Assembly (NCBI GenBank): GCA_938041625.1
Contig: CALISK010000159.1
Location: 1 to 47,404, forward strand
Length of the DNA: 47,404 bases
Direction of reading: 5' to 3'
Source of the DNA: an uncultured Tenacibaculum sp.
GTDB lineage: Bacteria > Bacteroidota > Bacteroidia > Flavobacteriales > Flavobacteriaceae
Part shown: positions 27,039-39,225 of the stretch, one piece after another
Layout of the letters: each line of letters opens with the position of its first letter
Numbering within the stretch: position 1 is the stretch's first letter
The notes under the pieces: model-generated
Seen by the model: only the letters and a program-made list of their open reading frames with translations
Databases searched by the model: none
What the model was told of the DNA's origin: nothing
Position numbers and translations under genes: made by a program

Positions 27039-28496
27039 ATGGGAAAATTAGGCGGATTTAAAGAGTTTAGTAGAGTAGATGAAGGAGCTATAGCTGTTAA
27101 AGAAAGAGTACAGAATTACAATGAATTTACAGTTGCTTTAAAAAATGAAGAATTAAAAAAACAAGCAGGTCGTTGTATGGATTGTGGTATACCATTTTGC
27201 CATAGTGGTTGCCCGTTAGGAAATTTGGTGCCAGATTTTAATGATATGGTGTATAAAGGAGAATGGAAAAAAGCAGCTGAAATTTTACATGCAACAAACA
27301 ATTTTCCAGAATTTACAGGAAGATTATGTCCAGCACCTTGTGAAAAATCATGTGTTTTAGGATTAATAAACGATCCTGTATCTATAGAAAATATTGAAAA
27401 AAATATTGTAGAACAAGCTTTTGAAAATAAATGGATTCAACCACAAATACCGAACAAAAGAACAGGGAAAATGGTAGCTGTTATTGGTTCAGGACCTGCT
27501 GGTTTAGCCGCTGCACAACAATTAAACAGAGCAGGACATATAGTAACTGTTTTTGAAAGAGATGATAAAGTTGGAGGGTTGTTACGTTACGGAATTCCTA
27601 ATTTTAAATTAGAAAAAGGAATTATAGATAGGCGAATTAAAATTTTAGAAAAGGAAGGAATTATTTTTAAAACAAGTGTACATGTTGGAGTTAATTATGA
27701 CATTAAAAATTTAGATTACTTTGATGCAATAGTATTATGTGGAGGAGCTACTAAAAAAAGAAGTTTGACTATAAATGGGATAGATAGTAAAGGAGTTGTA
27801 CAAGCAATGGACTTCTTAACACAACAAACTAAACAATTATTTAATTCACCTGTTGAAGGAGAGATTATTTCTGCAAAAGGGAAAAATGTAATTGTTATTG
27901 GAGGAGGAGATACAGGATCGGATTGTATAGGGACATCTAACAGACATGGAGCAAAATCTGTAACAAACTTTGAAATTATGCCGAAGCCTCCAAAAGATAG
28001 AAGTCAAGATACTCCTTGGCCATTTTGGCCTTTACAATTGAAAACAAGTTCTTCTCATGAAGAAGGAGTAGAAAGAAATTGGTTAATTAATACAAAGGAG
28101 TTTGTAACCAATGATAAAAATGAATTAATAGCTTTAAAGACTATAAATGTAGAATGGAAAAAGGTTCCAGGAGAGCGACCTCAGTTAATAGAAATAGAAG
28201 GAACAGAGAAAATTTGGCCTTGTGAATTAACGCTTTTAGCATTAGGTTTTACAGGACCAGAAACAACTTTAAGTGAGCAATTAGGAGTACAATTAAATGC
28301 ACGATCTAATTATAAAGCAAAGAACTACCAAACCAATGTTCCTCATGTTTTTACAGCAGGGGATATGCGAAGAGGACAATCATTAATTGTTTGGGCAATT
28401 TCTGAAGGAAGAGAAGCTGCAAAATCAGTAGACACTTACTTAATGAGTACTTCTTATTTACAGTCTAAAGGAAAAGGAGATTTACCATCTGTTTAA
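27039..28496 (+). CDS. gltD: Glutamate synthase small subunit
   Basis: RCMDCGIPFCHSGCPLGN, GRLCPAPCEKSCVLG, VIGSGPAGLAAAQQLN, VIGGGDTGSDCIGT. Confidence 0.96.
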   Translation: MGKLGGFKEFSRVDEGAIAVKERVQNYNEFTVALKNEELKKQAGRCMDCGIPFCHSGCPLGNLVPDFNDMVYKGEWKKAAEILHATNNFPEFTGRLCPAPCEKSCVLGLINDPVSIENIEKNIVEQAFENKWIQPQIPNKRTGKMVAVIGSGPAGLAAAQQLNRAGHIVTVFERDDKVGGLLRYGIPNFKLEKGIIDRRIKILEKEGIIFKTSVHVGVNYDIKNLDYFDAIVLCGGATKKRSLTINGIDSKGVVQAMDFLTQQTKQLFNSPVEGEIISAKGKNVIVIGGGDTGSDCIGTSNRHGAKSVTNFEIMPKPPKDRSQDTPWPFWPLQLKTSSSHEEGVERNWLINTKEFVTNDKNELIALKTINVEWKKVPGERPQLIEIEGTEKIWPCELTLLALGFTGPETTLSEQLGVQLNARSNYKAKNYQTNVPHVFTAGDMRRGQSLIVWAISEGREAAKSVDTYLMSTSYLQSKGKGDLPSV

Positions 28497-28702: not shown

Positions 28703-28737
28703 AAAGCCTGTCTGAAAATTATTTTCAGACAGGCTTT
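28703..28737. terminator. 17-bp perfect hairpin, likely terminator (T-rich side on the minus strand)
   Basis: aaagcctgtctgaaaat-t-attttcagacaggcttt; the minus strand continues tttttatttta. Confidence 0.6.
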
Positions 28738-28954: not shown

Positions 28955-29374
28955 TTAGTTATAACCAGAATAGCATCCTTGAGTAATTATATCTGTAACA
29001 GAGGATGGTCCGGAAGAAGTCATTGCTTCAACTCTAAGAACACCTCCATTACAACCAAAAGCAAGTGTTACAAAAGAAGTGTAAGAAGTATAAATTAAAG
29101 TTCCATTCTTATAAAATTTATATGGAGCAGTGCCGCCCTGAACATTAACATCTAGCTGACCATGAGGTCCAACACCCTTCCATGTCATGGATATTGAGGA
29201 GTTCACTCTAAATATTTCTGTCAGTTCAATATCGTTATTTAATGTCACTTTTACTTCTTGTGCATTAGCACTATTGGAATAAATACTAGGATTGATAGGA
29301 TGTGATGTTCCAGACATCTGTCCAAATATCCAATGTGAGTTAAATATTAATGAAAGTAAAATAAGTTTTTCCAT
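28955..29374 (-). CDS. Small secreted hypothetical protein with SprB-repeat-like segment
   Basis: Signal peptide-like N-terminus MEKLILLSLIFNSHWIFGQ; VNVQGGTAPYKFYKNGTLI resembles SprB/Ig-like repeats. Confidence 0.55.
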   Translation of the reverse strand: MEKLILLSLIFNSHWIFGQMSGTSHPINPSIYSNSANAQEVKVTLNNDIELTEIFRVNSSISMTWKGVGPHGQLDVNVQGGTAPYKFYKNGTLIYTSYTSFVTLAFGCNGGVLRVEAMTSSGPSSVTDIITQGCYSGYN

Positions 29375-29544: not shown

Positions 29545-29654
29545 TATAAGCTCTAAATGAATTTTTTTAGTTACCGTTTTATATAACAATAATTATTTTT
29601 TAATAAAAAAAATTAGGATTATTAAAAAATAATTACAAATATTTGCAGTATCAG

Positions 29655-29717
29655 ATGAAAAAACAAATTTTAAATATCATTTCTATTATTGTCATTGTGA
29701 TTATTTCACAAGGATAA
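29655..29717 (+). CDS. ilv leader peptide 1: MKKQILNIISIIVIVIISQG
   Basis: 20-aa ORF with 8 Ile, 2 Val and 1 Leu; followed by an intrinsic terminator and then ilvE-D-B-N-C-A. Confidence 0.75.
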   Translation: MKKQILNIISIIVIVIISQG

Positions 29718-29760
29718 GGAAGGGTATATTAAAAATAAAAAATATAATAAAAGGCTTCCT
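29717..29760 (+). promoter_or_regulatory. Candidate antiterminator pairing of attenuator 1
   Basis: aggaag (29717-29722, at the leader stop TAA) pairs with cttcct (29755-29760) in the 5' terminator arm. Confidence 0.5.
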
Positions 29761-29782
29761 AAAATTTAGGAAGCCTTTTTTA
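29749..29782 (+). terminator. Attenuator terminator 1
   Basis: aaaaggcttcct..aggaagcctttttt. Confidence 0.85.
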
Positions 29783-29793
29783 GTTTACAAAAC

Positions 29794-29856
29794 ATGAATA
29801 ACATAACAACTATTATCGTAATTATTATTGTCATTATTAGCTCACCACCGAGTTGA
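29794..29856 (+). CDS. ilv leader peptide 2: MNNITTIIVIIIVIISSPPS
   Basis: 20-aa ORF with 8 Ile, 2 Val and 2 Thr; resembles enterobacterial ilv leader peptides; followed by terminator 2. Confidence 0.8.
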   Translation: MNNITTIIVIIIVIISSPPS

Positions 29857-29894
29857 TACAGTAGATAATTACCTTATTTAAAAGCCTGTATCAA
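29853..29894 (+). promoter_or_regulatory. Candidate antiterminator pairing of attenuator 2
   Basis: ttgatacag (29853-29861, spanning the leader stop TGA) is the exact reverse complement of ctgtatcaa (29886-29894) in the 5' terminator arm. Confidence 0.65.
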
Positions 29895-29917
29895 GATATT
29901 GATACAGGCTTTTTTTA
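29880..29917 (+). terminator. Attenuator terminator 2
   Basis: aaaagcctgtatcaa-gata-ttgatacaggcttttttta. Confidence 0.88.
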
Positions 29918-30068
29918 TGCTAGTGAATGTTATATTTAAAAGAGGTTAAGGTGTTGATAATGATTTCATTAGATTGTTTTTTGTTGATCTGAAAATCATT
30001 GAGTTAAGAATAGTTTATAAAAATAAAAAAAGGAATAAAATAATTTAGAATCATAAAAGCAGCTAAAA

Positions 30069-30956
30069 ATGTATTTCAACGAACAAAGTGTAGTTTTTTA
30101 TAACGGGAAATTTATTAAAGCAAAAGAAGCAACAGCAAATGTATACAGTCAAAGTTTACATTATGGGAATGGTGTTTTTGAAGGTATAAGAGCTTATAAT
30201 ACAGAAAATGGAACCAAAGTTTTTAAATCTTTAGAACATTATAAAAGGTTAAAATTAGGGGCTGAAGTAATGAATATTCAATTTGATTATTCAGAAGAGG
30301 AATTAACTAAAATTACATATGAGTTATTAAAACGTAATGGGTTAAAAGATGCTTATATACGTCCATTAATAACAACAGGAGCAGATATGAGTTTGTTAAC
30401 CTCATCAGAAACCAACTTTATAATCCAGTGTTGGGAATGGGGAAAGTATATGGGGGATAAATTACTTCGAGTTAAAACATCTAGTTTTCAACGTCCAAAC
30501 CCTAATTCATGTTTTGTAGAAACAAAAATTACAGGGCATTATGTAAATTCAATTTTGTCTACAAATGAGGCAAAAAAAGAAGGATATGATGAGGCTCTGT
30601 TATTAGATATGAACGGTAATGTAGCAGAATGTTCTGGAGCTAATGTTTTTATGCAAAAGGATGGGAAATTATTTACACCACCAAGAGGACATATTATGGC
30701 AGGAATAACAAGAGCAACAGTAATAGAGCTATGTGAAGAAGAAGGAATTCCAGTAGAAGAGAAGCATTTCACTTTAGAAGAGTTAAAACAAGCTGATGCC
30801 TGTTTTTTTACAGGAACAGCAGCAGAAGTAGTTGGATTAGAATCATTAGATGATTATAATTTTCCATTGCGTTGGGAAGCATCTTATGGGTATCAACTAA
30901 TGAAATTATATAAAGAAGAAGTTTTAGAATTAAGAACAAAAGCGAAAGCAGTTTAA
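30069..30956 (+). CDS. ilvE: Branched-chain amino acid aminotransferase
   Basis: [68 protein letters not shown]. Confidence 0.95.
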
Positions 30957-30957
30957 G

Positions 30958-32634
30958 ATGGAATTAAATAAGTTTAGTAAACAAGTAACTCAAGACGATA
31001 CACAACCTGCAGCACAAGCAATGTTGCATGCTATTGGTTTATCAAAAGAAGATTTACAAAAACCATTAGTAGGAATTGCAAGTACCGGGTATGAAGGGAA
31101 CCCGTGTAATATGCATTTAAATGATCTTGCTAAATTGGTTAAAAAAGGAACAAAAAACACTGATTTAATTGGGTTAATTTTTAATACTATAGGTGTTTCC
31201 GATGGTATCTCTATGGGAACACCAGGTATGCGATTTTCATTGCCTTCTCGTGATGTTATAGCTGATTCAATGGAAACAGTAGTACAAGCAATGTCGTATG
31301 ATGGTTTAGTTACTGTAGTAGGTTGTGATAAAAATATGCCAGGAGCATTAATGGCTATGTTACGATTAAATAGACCTTCTGTTTTAGTATATGGAGGAAC
31401 TATTGCTTCAGGTTGTCATGATGGAAAAAAATTAGATATAGTTTCTGCATTTGAAGCTTGGGGAAGTAAAGTGGCAGGTACAATAACACAAAAAGAATAT
31501 CAGAGTGTAATAGAAAAAGCTTGCCCAGGAGCAGGAGCTTGTGGAGGTATGTACACTGCAAATACGATGGCTTCGGCAATTGAAGCATTGGGTATGAGTT
31601 TACCTTACAATTCATCAAATCCAGCAATTAGTAAAGATAAAGAAGAAGAAAGTGTAAAAGCAGGAGAAGCTTTACGAGTATTATTAGAAAAAGATATTAA
31701 ACCGTCAGATATTGTAACTAAAAAAGCATTAGAAAATGCAGTTCGTTTGGTTACTGTAATGGGAGGTTCTACGAATGCTGTATTACATTTTCTAGCAATA
31801 GCAAAAGCAGCTGATGTTGAATTTACATTAAAAGATTTTCAACGTATATCTGATGAAACTCCTTTTTTGGCTGATTTAAAACCAAGTGGAAAATATTTGA
31901 TGGAAGATGTACATCGTGTAGGAGGTACGCCAGCAGTATTAAAATATTTGCTAACAAAAGGATTGTTACATGGAGATTGCCTAACAGTAACAGGGAAAAC
32001 ATTAGCCGAAAATTTAATAGAAGTACCAGGTTTAACAAGCGGACAAGATGTTATTAAACCGATTGATAGTCCAATAAAAGCCACAGGACATTTAAGAATG
32101 CTATATGGAAATTTGGCTAAAGAAGGTTCGGTAGCTAAAATAACAGGAAAAGAAGGATTGATTTTTAAAGGGAAAGCAAAAGTTTTTGAAGGTGAATTTC
32201 AAGCAAATGAAGGTATAAAAAATGGAGAAGTAGAAAAAGGAGATGTAGTGGTAATTCGTTATGAAGGACCAAAAGGTGGACCAGGTATGCCAGAAATGTT
32301 AAAACCAACCGCAGCTATTATGGGAGCGGGTTTAGGAAAAGAGGTAGCATTAATTACTGATGGACGTTTCTCTGGAGGAACACATGGGTTTGTAGTAGGG
32401 CATATTACTCCAGAAGCACAAGAAGGCGGAGTAATCGCATTAGTAAAAAACGGAGATATAATTTCAATTAATGCAGAAAAAAACACTATTGATTTAGAAG
32501 TTTCAAAGGAAGAATTAAAAGAAAGAAGAGTACAATGGATAGCTCCGTCATTAAAAGTGAAAAGAGGAGTTTTATATAAATATGCAAAAACAGTAGCATC
32601 TGCATCTAACGGATGTGTTACAGATGAATTTTAA
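30958..32634 (+). CDS. ilvD: Dihydroxy-acid dehydratase
   Basis: [69 protein letters not shown]. Confidence 0.97.
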
Positions 32635-32645
32635 AGATCAGTAAT

Positions 32646-34379
32646 ATGGAAACTAGAGAAAAAAAATCAAAAAAAGAAGAAATAAAAACAAACGTAACTG
32701 TTTCGGGAGCTGAGGCAGTTGTAAAATGTTTATTAGCAGAAGGAGTCGATATTTTATACGGATATCCAGGAGGAGCAATTATGCCAGTGTATGATGAATT
32801 GTATAAGTATAAAGACAAATTAAATCATGTACTTACACGTCATGAACAAGGAGCAACACACTCAGCACAAGGATACGCAAGAGCAACAGGAAAAGTAGGA
32901 GTCGCAATGGCAACTTCTGGCCCTGGAGCTACCAATTTAATAACAGGTATTGCAGATGCTCAAATAGATTCTACACCAATGGTTTGTATTACAGGTCAGG
33001 TAGCTTCTCATTTATTAGGGTCTGACGCTTTTCAAGAAACAGATATTGTAGGAATTTCGACCCCAGTAACAAAATGGAATTATCAAATAACAAAAGCAAG
33101 TGAAATACCTGAAATATTTGCAAAGGCATTTTATATAGCACGCTCTGGAAGACCAGGGCCAGTATTAATAGATATTACTAAAGATGCACAGTTTGAACAA
33201 TTTGAATTTTCTTATGAAAAATGTACTTCGGTTAGAAGTTATAAAGCAATTCCAGAATTAAATATAGAAGCAGTAAAAGAAGCTGCAAATTTAATTAATG
33301 AAGCCAAAAAACCATTTGTTATTTGGGGGCAAGGAATTGTGTTGGGAGAAGCAGAAGAAGAGTTTAAGGAATTTATAGAAAAAGCAGGAATACCGTCAGC
33401 GAGTACATTATTAGGGTTATCAGCATTACCTACAAAGCATCCACTTCATGTAGGAATGGTGGGAATGCATGGTAATTATGGCCCCAATAAATTAACCAAT
33501 GAATGTGATGTGTTAATTGCTGTAGGTATGCGCTTTGATGATCGAGTTACAGGTGATTTAAGTAGATATGCAAAACAAGCTAAAGTTGTTCATTTTGAAA
33601 TAGACCCAGCAGAGATCGATAAAAATGTGAAAGCAAATGTGGCTGTTTTAGGAAATGCAAAAGAGACGTTAAAAACTATTTTGCCTTTTGTTAAAGAAAA
33701 TATGCATAAAGAATGGCTACAAGAGTTTAGAGATTATGATGCTACGGAGTTTGATAAAGTTATAAAAAAAGATTTATATCCTACCAAAGAAGGTTTAACA
33801 ATGGGGGAAGTAATAAAAGAGATTAATAAAGCTTCACAAGGAGATGCCATTGTAGTTACAGATGTTGGTCAACATCAAATGGTTGCTTGTCGTTATGCAG
33901 AATTTAACCAAACAAAAAGTAATATTACTTCAGGTGGTTTAGGTACTATGGGATTTGCATTACCAGCTGCTATTGGAGCTAAAATGGGAGCGCCAGAACG
34001 AGAAGTAGTAGCAGTGATTGGTGATGGAGGCTATCAAATGACAATTCAAGAGTTAGGAACTATTTTACAAACAAAAGCAGCGGTTAAAATAGTGGTTTTA
34101 AATAATGAATTTTTAGGAATGGTTCGTCAATGGCAACAGTTATTCTTTGATAAAAGATATGCATCTACAGAAATGACAAACCCAGATTTTGTAGCGATAG
34201 CAAAAGGATATCATTTAAAAGCAAATAGAGTAACAAAACGAGAAGAGTTAGAAAACGTAGTACAAGAAATGATGCAATCAGAGGAGGCTTATTTTTTAGA
34301 AGTTTGTGTAGAAAAGGAAGGCAACGTATTTCCAATGATAGCTACAGGTTCATCGGTTTCAGAAGTTAGATTAAGTTAA
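32646..34379 (+). CDS. ilvB: Acetolactate synthase large subunit
   Basis: YGYPGGAIMPVYDELYK, RHEQGATHSAQGYARATGKVGVAMATSGPGATNLITGIADA, GDGGYQMTIQELGTI. Confidence 0.97.
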   Translation: METREKKSKKEEIKTNVTVSGAEAVVKCLLAEGVDILYGYPGGAIMPVYDELYKYKDKLNHVLTRHEQGATHSAQGYARATGKVGVAMATSGPGATNLITGIADAQIDSTPMVCITGQVASHLLGSDAFQETDIVGISTPVTKWNYQITKASEIPEIFAKAFYIARSGRPGPVLIDITKDAQFEQFEFSYEKCTSVRSYKAIPELNIEAVKEAANLINEAKKPFVIWGQGIVLGEAEEEFKEFIEKAGIPSASTLLGLSALPTKHPLHVGMVGMHGNYGPNKLTNECDVLIAVGMRFDDRVTGDLSRYAKQAKVVHFEIDPAEIDKNVKANVAVLGNAKETLKTILPFVKENMHKEWLQEFRDYDATEFDKVIKKDLYPTKEGLTMGEVIKEINKASQGDAIVVTDVGQHQMVACRYAEFNQTKSNITSGGLGTMGFALPAAIGAKMGAPEREVVAVIGDGGYQMTIQELGTILQTKAAVKIVVLNNEFLGMVRQWQQLFFDKRYASTEMTNPDFVAIAKGYHLKANRVTKREELENVVQEMMQSEEAYFLEVCVEKEGNVFPMIATGSSVSEVRLS

Positions 34380-34384
34380 GAGTT

Positions 34385-34900
34385 ATGAGTACAAAAAACA
34401 CCTATACAGTATCTATTTATACCGAAAATAATGTAGGATTATTAAATCGAATCTCTGCAATATTTCAGCGTAGACACATGAATATAGAAAGTATAAACAG
34501 TTCAAAGTCGGAGATTAAAAATGTATCTAGAATTACCATTTTAGTAAAGATTACAGAAGATCAAATGAAAAAAATAATTGGTCAAATCGAAAAACAGGTA
34601 GAGGTAATTAAAGCTTTTTATCATTCAGAGGAAGAAACTATTTATCAAGAATCTTGTTTGTTCAAATTAAATTCTGATTTGTTAATTGAAAATGATGAAA
34701 TTCAAATGATTATCAATCAAAGTAAATCAAGAGTCATTAATATTAATAAAGATTTTTTTGTATTAGAGAAATCAGGCTCTAAAGAAGAGGTAGAAGAATT
34801 ATATCAAATTTTAAAAAAGCATGGAATCATGCAGTTTGTTCGCTCAGGACGAATAGCAATAACAAAAGAGGAAATGAAAATATCAAAAATGTTAGATTAA
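34385..34900 (+). CDS. ilvN: Acetolactate synthase small subunit
   Basis: ACT domain TVSIYTENNVGLLNRISAIFQRRHMNIESINSSKSE; FVLEKSGSKEEVEELYQIL. Confidence 0.93.
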   Translation: MSTKNTYTVSIYTENNVGLLNRISAIFQRRHMNIESINSSKSEIKNVSRITILVKITEDQMKKIIGQIEKQVEVIKAFYHSEEETIYQESCLFKLNSDLLIENDEIQMIINQSKSRVININKDFFVLEKSGSKEEVEELYQILKKHGIMQFVRSGRIAITKEEMKISKMLD

Positions 34901-34907
34901 TTAATAC

Positions 34908-35741
34908 GTGATAAAAAATATTGAAATACACGAAACAGCTTTTATAACTTCTATGTTTAGAGCAATGAATACATCTTTAAGTAAAGATTATTATTCAAAG
35001 CTTTGGAATAATAAAAGAACTAAAATATGGGTAACCGATTATTTAAAGGAGGTTTCTTCAGAAGAAGCTCATGCTCATTGTGTAAGAAATAGATTTTTCC
35101 TAGAAAAAATTCAACAACTTATAAAAGAAGCTAAAATAGATATCCTTATAAATTTTGGTTCAGGTTTTAGTATGTATCCATTTTTATTAAACGAATCTAT
35201 AGAGCATATAGAAATAGATAAACCAGATATTATAGATTATAAGAAACATAAAGTCTCAAACTGGGTGCAAACAGGCGAATTACCAGAAAGGGAAATACAT
35301 TTTTTAGGAGTTGATTTTGAAGAGGATTATAAAGAAGAATTATATACTAAAATTCAAAAAATAAAAAAGAATAAAAGATCTTTTGTTTTAATAGAAGGGG
35401 TATTATTCTTTTTAAATAAGAATCAAGTAGATACACTATTCGGTTTTTTTAATGAAATTCAAAAACAAGGAGATTATTTAGGAAGTGTTTCATTTAATTC
35501 TACAGTAAAAAAAACGAAAGCATTTTTGAGGTTACTTAATTTCTTTAATGAAAGAGTTTCAAAAACATCAAAGGATGATTATTTAACATTAGAGAATAAT
35601 TTTTATAAAGAAAAATCAGCATATAAGATAAAAGAACATAAAGATTACTTTATGTATTCTAAAGAATTAAAAAGCAGAATAAATTTAAAAGAAACAGATA
35701 TTTTGAATGAGAACTTTTATCTGTTAGAAAAAATAAAATAA
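34908..35741 (+). CDS. Leucine carboxyl methyltransferase (LCM/COG3315-like) class I SAM-dependent methyltransferase
   Basis: INFGSGFSMYPFLL..EIDKPDIIDYKK, FVLIEGVLFFLNKNQVDTLF match the LCM layout; GTG start 7 bp after ilvN. Confidence 0.7.
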   Translation: MIKNIEIHETAFITSMFRAMNTSLSKDYYSKLWNNKRTKIWVTDYLKEVSSEEAHAHCVRNRFFLEKIQQLIKEAKIDILINFGSGFSMYPFLLNESIEHIEIDKPDIIDYKKHKVSNWVQTGELPEREIHFLGVDFEEDYKEELYTKIQKIKKNKRSFVLIEGVLFFLNKNQVDTLFGFFNEIQKQGDYLGSVSFNSTVKKTKAFLRLLNFFNERVSKTSKDDYLTLENNFYKEKSAYKIKEHKDYFMYSKELKSRINLKETDILNENFYLLEKIK

Positions 35742-35768: not shown

Positions 35769-37274
35769 ATGGCAACAAATTATTTCAATACATTATCATT
35801 AGCAGGAAAATTAGAACAATTAGGAAAATGTAGATTGATGGAGTCTACAGAGTTTTCAGAAGGTATTTCAGAATTAAAAGATAAAAAAATAGTAATTGTA
35901 GGTTGTGGAGCGCAAGGTTTAAATCAAGGTTTAAATATGAGAGATTCTGGCTTAGATATTTCATATGCATTACGAGAAGGAGCAATAAAAGAACAACGCC
36001 CATCTTATAAAAATGCTGTTGAAAATAGTTTTGTAGTTGGAACTTATAATGAATTAATACCAACAGCAGATGTAGTATGTAATTTAACGCCAGATAAGCA
36101 GCATACCAATGTAGTAAATACAGTAATGCCTTTAATGAAAGAAGGAGCAACATTATCGTACTCGCATGGATTTAATATTGTAGAAGAAGGAATGCAAGTG
36201 CGTAAAGATTTAACGGTAATTATGGTGGCACCAAAATGCCCAGGTAGTGAGGTTAGAGAGGAATATAAACGTGGTTTTGGAGTTCCTACATTAATTGCAG
36301 TACATCCAGAAAATGACCCAAAAAGTAAAGGTTTAGAACAAGCAAAAGCATACGCTTTTGCAACTGGAGGGCATAAAGCAGGAGTGTTAGAATCTTCTTT
36401 TGTAGCAGAAGTAAAATCAGATTTAATGGGCGAGCAAACCATTTTGTGTGGTGTATTACAAACGGCTTCAATTTTATCGTTTGATAAAATGGTTGAAGAA
36501 GGAATAGCGCCAGGTTATGCTAGTAAATTGGTACAATATGGTTGGGAAACCATAACTGAAGCTTTAAAACACGGTGGGATTACCAATATGATGGATCGTT
36601 TGTCTAATTCAGCAAAAATTAAAGCGTATGAACTTTCTGAAGAATTAAGAGGTTTATTAAAGCCTTTGTTTGAAAAACATATGGATGATATAATGTCGGG
36701 ACATTTTTCTAAAACGATGATGGAAGATTGGGCAAAGCATGATGTAAATTTATTAAGTTGGAGAGCAGCGACAGGAAAAACGAATTTTGAAAAATCAAAG
36801 GTTACAGTATTAGATATTACTGAGCAAGAATATTTTGATAAAGCAGTATTAATGGTTGCTTTTGTAAAAGCAGGAGTAGAGTTAGCTTTTGAAACTATGG
36901 TTGCTTCAGGTATTATATCGGCATCTGCTTATTACGAATCGTTACATGAACTTCCTTTAATAGCAAATACAGTTGCAAGAAAAAAATTATTTGAAATGAA
37001 TCGAATTATTTCAGATACAGCTGAATATGGTTGTTATTTATTCGATCATGCAGCAAAACCCTTGTTAACGGAATTTATGGAATCAGTAAACACTAATATT
37101 ATAGGAGAGGTTTATGAGAATACTAAATCGGTAGATAATTTAGAGTTGATAAAAGTAAATAAAGCAATTAGGAATCATCCGATAGAAAAAATAGGAGAAG
37201 AACTTAGAGAAGCAATGGTTTCTATGAAATCATTAAAAGTAGAGAGTTTAGAGAAAGAAGCTGTATTGATGTAA
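35769..37274 (+). CDS. ilvC: Ketol-acid reductoisomerase (long, class II)
   Basis: [60 protein letters not shown]; 501 aa. Confidence 0.97.
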
Positions 37275-37339: not shown

Positions 37340-38605
37340 ATGAAATCTACCATACATACATACTTTCCGAAAGTATCCGACATAAAAAAGGCAGCTGAGG
37401 TCATAAAACAAATAACCTCTGTAACACCTTTACAAGAAAACTATAATTTATCATCACAATTTAAAGCGAGGATTAATTTAAAAAGAGAAGATCTACAGCA
37501 AGTTCGTTCTTATAAAATAAGAGGAGCTTATAATAAAATTCATTCATTAACAGAAGAAGAATTAGTAAATGGTATTGTTTGTGCAAGTGCGGGAAACCAT
37601 GCTCAAGGTGTTGCATTGGCTTGCAGAAAAAAAGAAATTCACGGTACTATTTTTATGCCTGCACCAACCCCTAAACAAAAGGTAGAACAAGTAAAAATGT
37701 TTGGAGGCGAGTTTGTAGAAATACAATTAATAGGAGATACTTTTGATGATGCTTATAATGCAGCAAAAGAGAAAGAAATAATAAGTGAAAAAACATTTGT
37801 ACATCCTTTTAATGATGAAAAGATAATTGAAGGTCAGGCTACAGTAGGGTTAGAAATTATAGAGCAATCAAATGAGTTAATAGATTATGTTTTTGTTCCT
37901 GTAGGTGGTGGTGGTTTGGCTTCTGGATTGTCGAGTATTTTTAAACAATTATCTCCTAAAACAAAAATAATAGGAGTAGAGCCAGCAGGAGCACCATCAA
38001 TGCAAAAAGCAATTGAACATAAAAAGAATATTAAACTAAACAATATAGATAAGTTTATTGATGGGGCTGCAGTACAACAAGTAGGAGATTTAACGTATAA
38101 AATTTGTATAGATAATCTGGATGATATGATTACTGTAGAAGAAGGGAAAGTGTGTCAGACAATTTTAGAAATGTATAATAAAGAAGCAATTGTTGTAGAA
38201 CCTGCGGGAGCTTTAACTATAAGTGCATTAGAATCTTTTAAAGAAGAGATTATAGGAAAAAATGTAGTCTGTATTGTAAGTGGTAGTAATAATGATATTA
38301 CTAGAACAGCGGAAATAAAAGAAAGAGCATTGCTGTATGGTGGGTTAAAACATTATTTTATAGTACGTTTTCCACAACGTTCAGGCGCATTAAAAGAGTT
38401 TGTGATGAGGGTTTTAGGAGAGAATGATGATATTACTTTTTTTGAATATTCTAAAAAAACAAGTAGAGAAAATGGACCAGCAGTAGTTGGAATAGAGTTA
38501 GAGAATAAAGAAGATTTAGTTCCTTTAATAAAAAGAATGAAAGAGTTAAATTTCTATGGAGAATACTTAAATAATAAACCCAATTTATTTGAGTTTTTAG
38601 TATAA
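37340..38605 (+). CDS. ilvA: Threonine ammonia-lyase (threonine dehydratase)
   Basis: NLKREDLQQVRSYKIRGAYNKI, CASAGNHAQGVALAC, PVGGGGLASGLSSIF; C-terminal ACT-like regulatory region. Confidence 0.95.
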   Translation: MKSTIHTYFPKVSDIKKAAEVIKQITSVTPLQENYNLSSQFKARINLKREDLQQVRSYKIRGAYNKIHSLTEEELVNGIVCASAGNHAQGVALACRKKEIHGTIFMPAPTPKQKVEQVKMFGGEFVEIQLIGDTFDDAYNAAKEKEIISEKTFVHPFNDEKIIEGQATVGLEIIEQSNELIDYVFVPVGGGGLASGLSSIFKQLSPKTKIIGVEPAGAPSMQKAIEHKKNIKLNNIDKFIDGAAVQQVGDLTYKICIDNLDDMITVEEGKVCQTILEMYNKEAIVVEPAGALTISALESFKEEIIGKNVVCIVSGSNNDITRTAEIKERALLYGGLKHYFIVRFPQRSGALKEFVMRVLGENDDITFFEYSKKTSRENGPAVVGIELENKEDLVPLIKRMKELNFYGEYLNNKPNLFEFLV

Positions 38606-38720: not shown

Positions 38721-39225
38721 TTATGCATTTTCATAAGGATTGTATTTTTCAGTCATGCTTACTGTTATATTATTTGCTTTTAATAAATCTTGATATTTAT
38801 TATAGTAATATTTGTAACCCTCTATCTGAATTATGTATTAAGTGATTTTCATTGTAATTTCTATTTTTCAATGCGATTTCTAACGCTTCTATAGAGTCAG
38901 CTACATTTAAACTATTAGAAAGGTTATAACCCATTTTTTTTGAATAAACATCTGTAATTAAAGCTAAATAAAAAGAATTAGTTCTATTTCTAATATAAGT
39001 TATATCGCTAAACCATACTTGAATATCAATATTACTAATGCTATTCTTATACTTTCTAAATCTGTGATGAGAGTCTGTAGTAATACTTTGGATACCATAT
39101 TTTGTCTTTGCTTGACTTTTTGTTAAAAAACCTTGTTCTACTTCCTCTACTATTTGAAGTTTAAAAGAGAAAGAGTGATCTTTTTGAGTACGTTTGATAT
39201 ACCCCGTTGTGTTTGATGTTTTCAT
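38721..39225 (-). pseudogene. IS3-family transposase remnant (OrfA N-terminus fused to part of OrfB, frameshifted and truncated)
   Basis: KTSNTTGYIKRTQKDHSFSFKLQIVEEVEQG.. joined to VWFSDITYIR..LALITDVYSKKMGY..HSDRGLQ; the next frame continues YYYNKYQDLLKANNITVSMTEKYNPYENA*. Confidence 0.85.

Follow-up and report, generated by a model that had tools for sequence, protein, structure and literature searches.

Organization of the ilv Locus

The analyzed window, a stretch of 47,404 nt from an uncultured Tenacibaculum sp., a marine flavobacterium, carries an ilv operon preceded by two short open reading frames (ORFs), each of which is followed by an intrinsic terminator (Table 1). The genes downstream of the leader region were identified with NCBIfam models and are arranged in the order ilvE-D-B-N-(methyltransferase)-C-A. 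A first-pass annotation of the same DNA had read the operon as ilvE-D-B-N-C-A; all six of these genes were recovered, and the methyltransferase-like gene between ilvN and ilvC was missing from that list. Its description of the leaders holds in full, i.e., two 20-codon ORFs with eight Ile and two Val codons each, the second with two additional Thr codons, and a strong intrinsic terminator after either ORF. In both terminators the arms are 15 nt long and 100% complementary. Just downstream of ilvA, an ORF on the minus strand (38800-39225) resembles, as judged from its translation, a fragment of an IS3-type transposase.

Table 1. Features of the ilv leader region and operon (coordinates refer to the window)
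Feature	Coordinates	Strand	Basis
Probable sigma-A type promoter P1: TTAGG (-33 element, 29613-29617), TATTTG (-7 element, 29640-29645)	29613-29645	+	Alignment, bipartite pattern
Leader ORF 1, MKKQILNIISIIVIVIISQG and stop codon, 20 codons, 8 Ile + 2 Val	29655-29717	+	Part of model R1, kept in 128/168 genus genomes
Unit 1 protector/pause hairpin (segment 1:2), TTGTC-A-TTGTGA-ttatt-TCACAA-G-GATAA, overlapping leader stop codon	29689-29717	+	Folds, covariation
Unit 1 antiterminator arm AGGAAG, alternative partner of 29755-29760	29717-29722	+	Fold of partial transcript 29685-29765; register conserved
Intrinsic terminator 1 (T1)	29749-29781 (29749-29779 + T-tract)	+	Terminator scan, folds; kept in 56 tandem loci
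Leader ORF 2, MNNITTIIVIIIVIISSPPS and stop codon, 20 codons, 8 Ile + 2 Val + 2 Thr	29794-29856	+	Unit 2 copies adjoin unit 1 in 56/56
Unit 2 protector hairpin, TATTAGCTC-accacc-GAGTTGATA, encoding ISSPPS, overlapping stop codon	29835-29858	+	Folds (median z -3.5), pairing conservation
Unit 2 antiterminator arm TTGATACAG, identical to 3' arm of terminator 2, alternative partner of 29886-29894	29853-29861	+	9 bp, -10.8 kcal/mol
Intrinsic terminator 2 (T2)	29880-29916 (29880-29913 + T-tract)	+	Terminator scan, folds
Conserved-length spacer, terminator 2 to ilvE: TGAATGTTAT (29924-29933), GTTAA (29945-29949), TAATTTAG (30041-30048)	29924-30068	+	Alignment
ilvE, branched-chain aminotransferase	30069-30956	+	TIGR01122 above cutoff
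ilvD, dihydroxy-acid dehydratase	30958-32634	+	TIGR00110 above cutoff
ilvB, acetolactate synthase large subunit	32646-34379	+	TIGR00118 above cutoff
ilvN, acetolactate synthase small subunit	34385-34900	+	TIGR00119 above cutoff
SAM-dependent methyltransferase-like gene, within operon between ilvN and ilvC	34908-35741	+	Weak TIGR00027 match, below cutoff
ilvC, ketol-acid reductoisomerase (long form)	35769-37274	+	NF003557 above cutoff
ilvA, threonine ammonia-lyase	37340-38605	+	TIGR02079 above cutoff

The nearest upstream gene on the plus strand, a glutamate synthase small-subunit-like ORF, ends at 28496 and has a terminator-like site of its own (28703-28737), and a minus-strand ORF (28955-29374) separates it from the leader region. 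The possibility that T1 and T2 terminate an upstream gene was therefore rejected.

Putative Leader Peptides

Both ORFs are short and rich in codons for the amino acids that the operon produces, as is typical of the leaders of ribosome-mediated attenuators. Among 56 orthologous tandem loci, the average content per leader of approximately 20 codons is 7.4 Ile and 2.5 Val for ORF1 and 6.9 Ile and 2.4 Val for ORF2, i.e., about 7 Ile and 2.4 Val codons, compared with 7% for each of the two amino acids in genes. The average number of Thr codons is only 0.3 per leader. The minor Ile codon ATA is avoided, constituting 5/417 Ile codons in leader 1, where it is almost missing, and 37/387 in leader 2, vs. 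118/317 in genes. GTC accounts for 40-50% of the leader Val codons, yet it is rare among the Val codons of genes (8/310). In theory, the choice of isoacceptor sets the sensitivity of an attenuator (PMC1183508), and part of the observed codon bias may stem from the hairpins. Read in frame, both leaders have a pN/pS ratio of 0.48, compared with 1.13 for frame +2; RNA pairing also constrains the same bases.

RNA Structures of the Two Units

The scanned region of 3 kb contains 5 terminator-like sites, whereas 1.0 is expected from shuffled sequences, and an intrinsic terminator follows the leader in both units, as in attenuators generally. Since alignment of whole units with MAFFT and RNAalifold recovered only the terminator for unit 1, the hairpins were analyzed in ungapped windows. 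In the unit 1 protector hairpin, 95.5% of alignment cells pair and 12 cells are compensated on both sides; its covariation score is 0.264 vs. 0.151 in shuffled alignments (0/500 as high) and lies far above that of slid versions. The unit 2 protector is less variable, with 98.5% of cells paired vs. 23-42% when the window is slid.

The leader stop codon of each unit is the site of an arm with the sequence of the terminator's 3' half, and this arm can pair with the 5' half instead; the partial transcript of unit 1 (29685-29765) folds into this antiterminator pairing. The pairing is in register at nearly all loci, with a median energy of -9.8 kcal/mol vs. about -5.6 kcal/mol in shuffles; taken singly, the pairings are marginally above shuffled controls, with p below 0.05 in about half. 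Replacing the terminator arm of a species by that of another one weakens the pairing (p about 5e-5, 51 units across Bacteroidota). The same permutation within the genus gives p = 0.012 for unit 2 and p = 0.096, which is not significant, for unit 1. Coordinated triple changes were found in two genomes (GGATG/CATCC/GGATG in G023 and TGGAAG/CTTCCA/TGGAAG in G178). Antiterminator and protector pairings are mutually exclusive and positioned at the control codons and the stop codon of the leader, the permutation result being strong across Bacteroidota and weaker within the genus. Covariation supports for each unit a classical attenuator design, with a putative protector and with an antiterminator arm whose partner arm is also part of the terminator.

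Probable Promoter and Spacer

The -7 consensus reported for Bacteroidota is TAnnTTTG (PMC7366714). The bipartite promoter pattern was found before ORF1 in 39/56 orthologous loci vs. 0.4 in shuffles, the pattern having been defined post hoc. No bipartite promoter-like site was observed between the units in any of the 56 loci, again for a pattern defined after the first promoter had been seen. This agrees with the first-pass annotation, which had seen no obvious promoter there. With a conserved predicted promoter in front of ORF1 and none between the units, both terminators should be traversed by a single transcript. The leader region is thus located between a predicted promoter and ilvE, the first structural gene of the cognate operon.

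Translation in this phylum proceeds mostly without Shine-Dalgarno sites. The -7 element of P1 ends 9 nt before the ORF1 ATG, and the predicted 5' UTR is only a few nucleotides long, so ORF1 may be translated almost leaderless. In four species (G103, G077, G090, and G113; loci L056, L062, L179, and L180), TATTTG is located approximately 30 nt further upstream of ORF1, so that their predicted 5' UTR is longer than elsewhere in the genus.

The spacer between terminator 2 and ilvE (29917-30068) is nearly gapless and about 155 nt long in most tandem loci. It contains the motifs TGAAYATCAT-N-TTAA and TAATTT(T/C/A)G, and a spacer of this kind also follows single attenuators; the degenerate latter motif lies approximately 30 nt upstream of the ilvE start codon. 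The full -33/-7 pattern is rare in the spacer (2/55 loci vs. 39/56 for P1), and many species have TTCG or TTAG in place of TTTG. RNAalifold predicted no RNA structure in the spacer (0.0 kcal/mol), and its interpretation as a structured RNA was rejected; the same applies to its interpretation as a regulon motif, the pattern being rare and two of its three matches falling at the ilv locus itself. The spacer might conceivably hold an operator or a second promoter, either weaker or regulated. A promoter at 30041-30048, if real, would partly bypass both terminators.

Controls Against Chance

The leader/terminator units were detected by the presence of a short ORF with at least 36% Ile and Val codons that is followed by an intrinsic terminator within 100 nt. 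A stricter terminator rule missed real units, and the relaxed version was controlled with antisense strands and shuffled sequences. Applied upstream of ilvD in 80 named loci, this rule detected 52 sense-strand units and a single antisense unit, whereas 194 kb of Markov-shuffled sequence contained none. With a threshold of 33% and one genome from each of 87 further genera of the family, the counts were 56 sense and 4 antisense units. Tandem leader/terminator units of this kind are not expected by chance.

Conservation and Distribution of the Tandem

A covariance model was prepared for each unit, R1 for unit 1 and R2 for unit 2. Among 168 genomes of the genus, R1 was found in 128 and a strong R2 in 56. 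All R2 copies (56/56) are located downstream of an R1, at a distance of 7-51 nt (median 13), and a lone R2 was not observed in any of the 168 genomes; the remaining 72 members with R1 have unit 1 alone. Both ORFs are open in all 56 tandem loci, which answers the comparative check of leader conservation proposed at first pass. Each of these loci therefore carries two regulatory short ORFs in the leader of what, given no promoter between the units, should be a shared mRNA. The gene after the tandem is ilvE-ilvD or ilvD wherever the contig is long enough to be read. The closest named organism, Tenacibaculum caenipelagi, carries the pair. Independent assemblies, complete ones among them, contain the tandem as well, which excludes an artifact of the fragmented genome studied here (426 contigs).

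Tandem units were also identified in Gaetbulibacter, Aquimarina, Lutibacter, and Chryseobacterium, as well as in metagenome-assembled genomes labeled Cyclobacteriaceae and Ignavibacteriae. The earlier view that such a tandem is unusual in a flavobacterium had to be abandoned, since 56 of the 168 species in this genus have it, as do many other genera. At least one unit was detected in 46 of the 87 other genera of the family and at least two in series in 9, with a detector that misses weak cases; at this frequency, two units are not generally required. An apparent third unit in one of the scanned regions (L335) is a probable false positive. The family of unit 2 type attenuators is represented in 90 of 400 genomes of the bacterial family. 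Of the 27 loci of the family found with R2, 16 have at least two units and one (L272) has three. At L272 (genome G416), the three Ile-rich leader/terminator units stand in a row before ilvE. Two almost identical units at L357 (genome G270) point to a recent duplication. Some genera keep solely a unit 2-like attenuator and others solely unit 1, which suggests an old unit 1-unit 2 pair with differential loss.

Weak unit 1 matches outside the ilv loci were rejected as ilv units, being instead Asn-rich leaders before gatA-like genes. In several genomes of the genus (L238-L241 and L243-L246, e.g., L241:200-600), an Asn-rich leader of approximately 15 codons (such as MIINNNNRNFNNPNC) is accompanied by an intrinsic terminator and precedes a gatA-like gene by about 400 nt; the best match of that gene is TIGR00132 (GatA), with E about 1e-128 and just under the cutoff. 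This leader is likely an asparagine-codon attenuator that controls Asn-tRNA formation or an amidase.

Proposed Serial Attenuation and Alternative Explanations

Given the observed sequence anatomy, its conservation and covariation, and the tandem order, the leader at 29.6-29.9 kb very probably represents two ribosome-mediated transcription attenuators arranged in series on one transcript, both of which sense the supply of Ile (and Val). This reading, a pair of ilv leader-peptide attenuators in series, had been proposed at first pass and is the best-supported one for a locus where the pair, leaders, terminators, arms, and protectors are all conserved and covary. From the anatomy we infer translation of the leaders, ribosome stalling, termination in vivo, passage of a single transcript through both units, and a multiplicative response. 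RNA polymerase would start at P1, almost at the start codon of ORF1. When Ile-tRNA is charged, the ribosome would reach the leader stop codon and cover the antiterminator arm, and the terminator would fold. When Ile-tRNA is scarce, the ribosome would stall at the Ile and Val codons making up the 5' strand of the protector hairpin. The stop-codon arm would then be available for pairing with the terminator's 5' arm, and the polymerase would read on. It would then be tested again at ORF2 and terminator 2 before reaching ilvE. Since escape from both terminators on one transcript is required, the total read-through would be the product of two probabilities, p1 x p2, with a lower repressed level and with the two sensitivities added. 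The response may be steeper or graded, as the first-pass annotation suggested; it seems that the cell tests for one and the same nutrient twice before it turns the pathway on.

Several observations count against this reading, namely, the marginal strength of the individual antiterminator pairings, the detection of tandem units in only 9 of the 87 other genera, the 72 single-unit members of the genus, which manage without the second unit, and the TAATTT(T/C/A)G motif as a possible bypass promoter. The motif is central to an explanation that deserves attention, even if we consider it doubtful: only unit 1 works on the main transcript, and a second promoter in 29917-30068 supplies part or most of the ilvE-A expression, possibly with a DNA-binding regulator, which would leave no more than part of the mRNA under the control of the tandem. 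The conserved length of the spacer, its almost gapless alignment, its lack of RNA structure, and its two motifs, spaced from the start codon as is common for promoters, are consistent with such a promoter, whereas the rarity of the full -33/-7 pattern and the substitutions of TTTG in many species argue against it; moreover, a bypass promoter leaves the conservation of both attenuators unexplained. The single-unit genomes, together with the recent duplications of such units elsewhere (L357 and L272), would also fit a second unit that is a mere passenger, either a leftover terminator or a duplicated attenuator without a regulatory role. This is quite improbable for a unit whose Ile-rich frame is open, and whose hairpin, antiterminator arm, and terminator are retained, in 56 species; the unit also covaries and belongs to a family found in 90 of 400 genomes of the larger bacterial family.

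It is also unlikely, if less so than a passenger role, that the units sense different signals, with unit 1 responding mainly to Ile and Val and unit 2 also to another one (Thr in this genome, or elongation at the Pro-Pro of SSPPS). The two Thr codons of ORF2, the SSPPS end conserved in most species, and the precedent of Salmonella mgtCBR, whose attenuators differ in signal (PMC3641672), speak for this explanation; against it are the near-equal Ile and Val contents of the two leaders and the low average of Thr. Furthermore, the protector hairpin largely accounts for SSPPS, and species with an altered hairpin have another sequence in its place (e.g., G002). That the ORFs arose by chance as low-complexity frames and that the hairpins are ordinary terminators can scarcely be maintained. 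The genome is AT-rich and the ORFs are short, but the excess of sense over antisense and shuffled units, as well as the conservation across the genus and the family, contradicts it, and no upstream plus-strand gene is left for T1 and T2 to end.

Taking serial attenuation as the preferred reading, we consider it moderately probable that a broader statement also applies: two and sometimes three leader-peptide attenuators in series, all sensing the same amino acid, would be a standing architecture of ilv operons in Bacteroidota. This architecture would probably derive from an ancient unit 1-unit 2 pair through later losses and fresh duplications, and control would be sharpened as the probabilities of read-through multiply. 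Such a tandem would be the first ribosome-mediated one described in which all attenuators respond to one signal.

Comparison with Known Systems

To our knowledge, experimental evidence on attenuation is thin in this phylum, in which ribosome-mediated attenuation is widespread by the present data. Each of the enterobacterial operons ilvGMEDA (with the leader ilvL), ilvBN, his, trp, and thr has one leader-peptide attenuator. Attenuated operons of enterobacteria have been listed previously (PMC1183508). The units described here share with them a leader rich in codons for the regulated amino acid, a protector, an antiterminator, and a terminator, and the cognate operon downstream. Unlike the single enterobacterial attenuators, they are arranged in series, have flavobacteria-specific leader sequences, and include a seemingly almost leaderless ORF1. 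No Rfam family (T-box, Leu_leader, and others) matched the window at gathering score. In Flavobacterium psychrophilum, transcript mapping provided "strong clues" for leader-peptide attenuation at amino-acid biosynthesis operons, the main text of that report naming neither an ilv example nor a tandem arrangement (PMC9723704).

Arrangements of two regulatory elements in one leader are known from other bacteria. In the mRNA leader of Salmonella mgtCBR, mgtM and mgtP sense ATP and proline, respectively (PMC3641672). As in the ilv leader, there are two short ORFs, each of which shapes the RNA structure downstream of it; in contrast to mgtCBR, the two ilv leaders share their control codons, and a strong intrinsic terminator of its own follows each of them. 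A separate signal for each ORF, as in mgtCBR, was not found here, the codon content of both pointing to Ile and Val. The tandem riboswitches of Bacillus clausii metE sense different metabolites and provide stronger combined control (described in PMC3641672). They resemble the ilv tandem in imposing two serial termination checks on a transcript, whereas they differ from it in having ligand-binding aptamers for different metabolites and no leader peptide. A full-text search, which left aside a 2010 attenuation survey (cited in PMC4833913), found no published same-signal tandem of this type.

Serial attenuators with the same control codons offer a natural test of the effect of serial termination on sensitivity and leak, since with a read-through of p1 x p2 the logarithmic gains would add and the leak would be squared; one- and two-unit species within one genus and the three-unit locus provide ready-made comparisons. 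Leader-peptide attenuation and the mixed-signal tandem were known before, and the new part would be the series of attenuators predicted to respond to the same signal.
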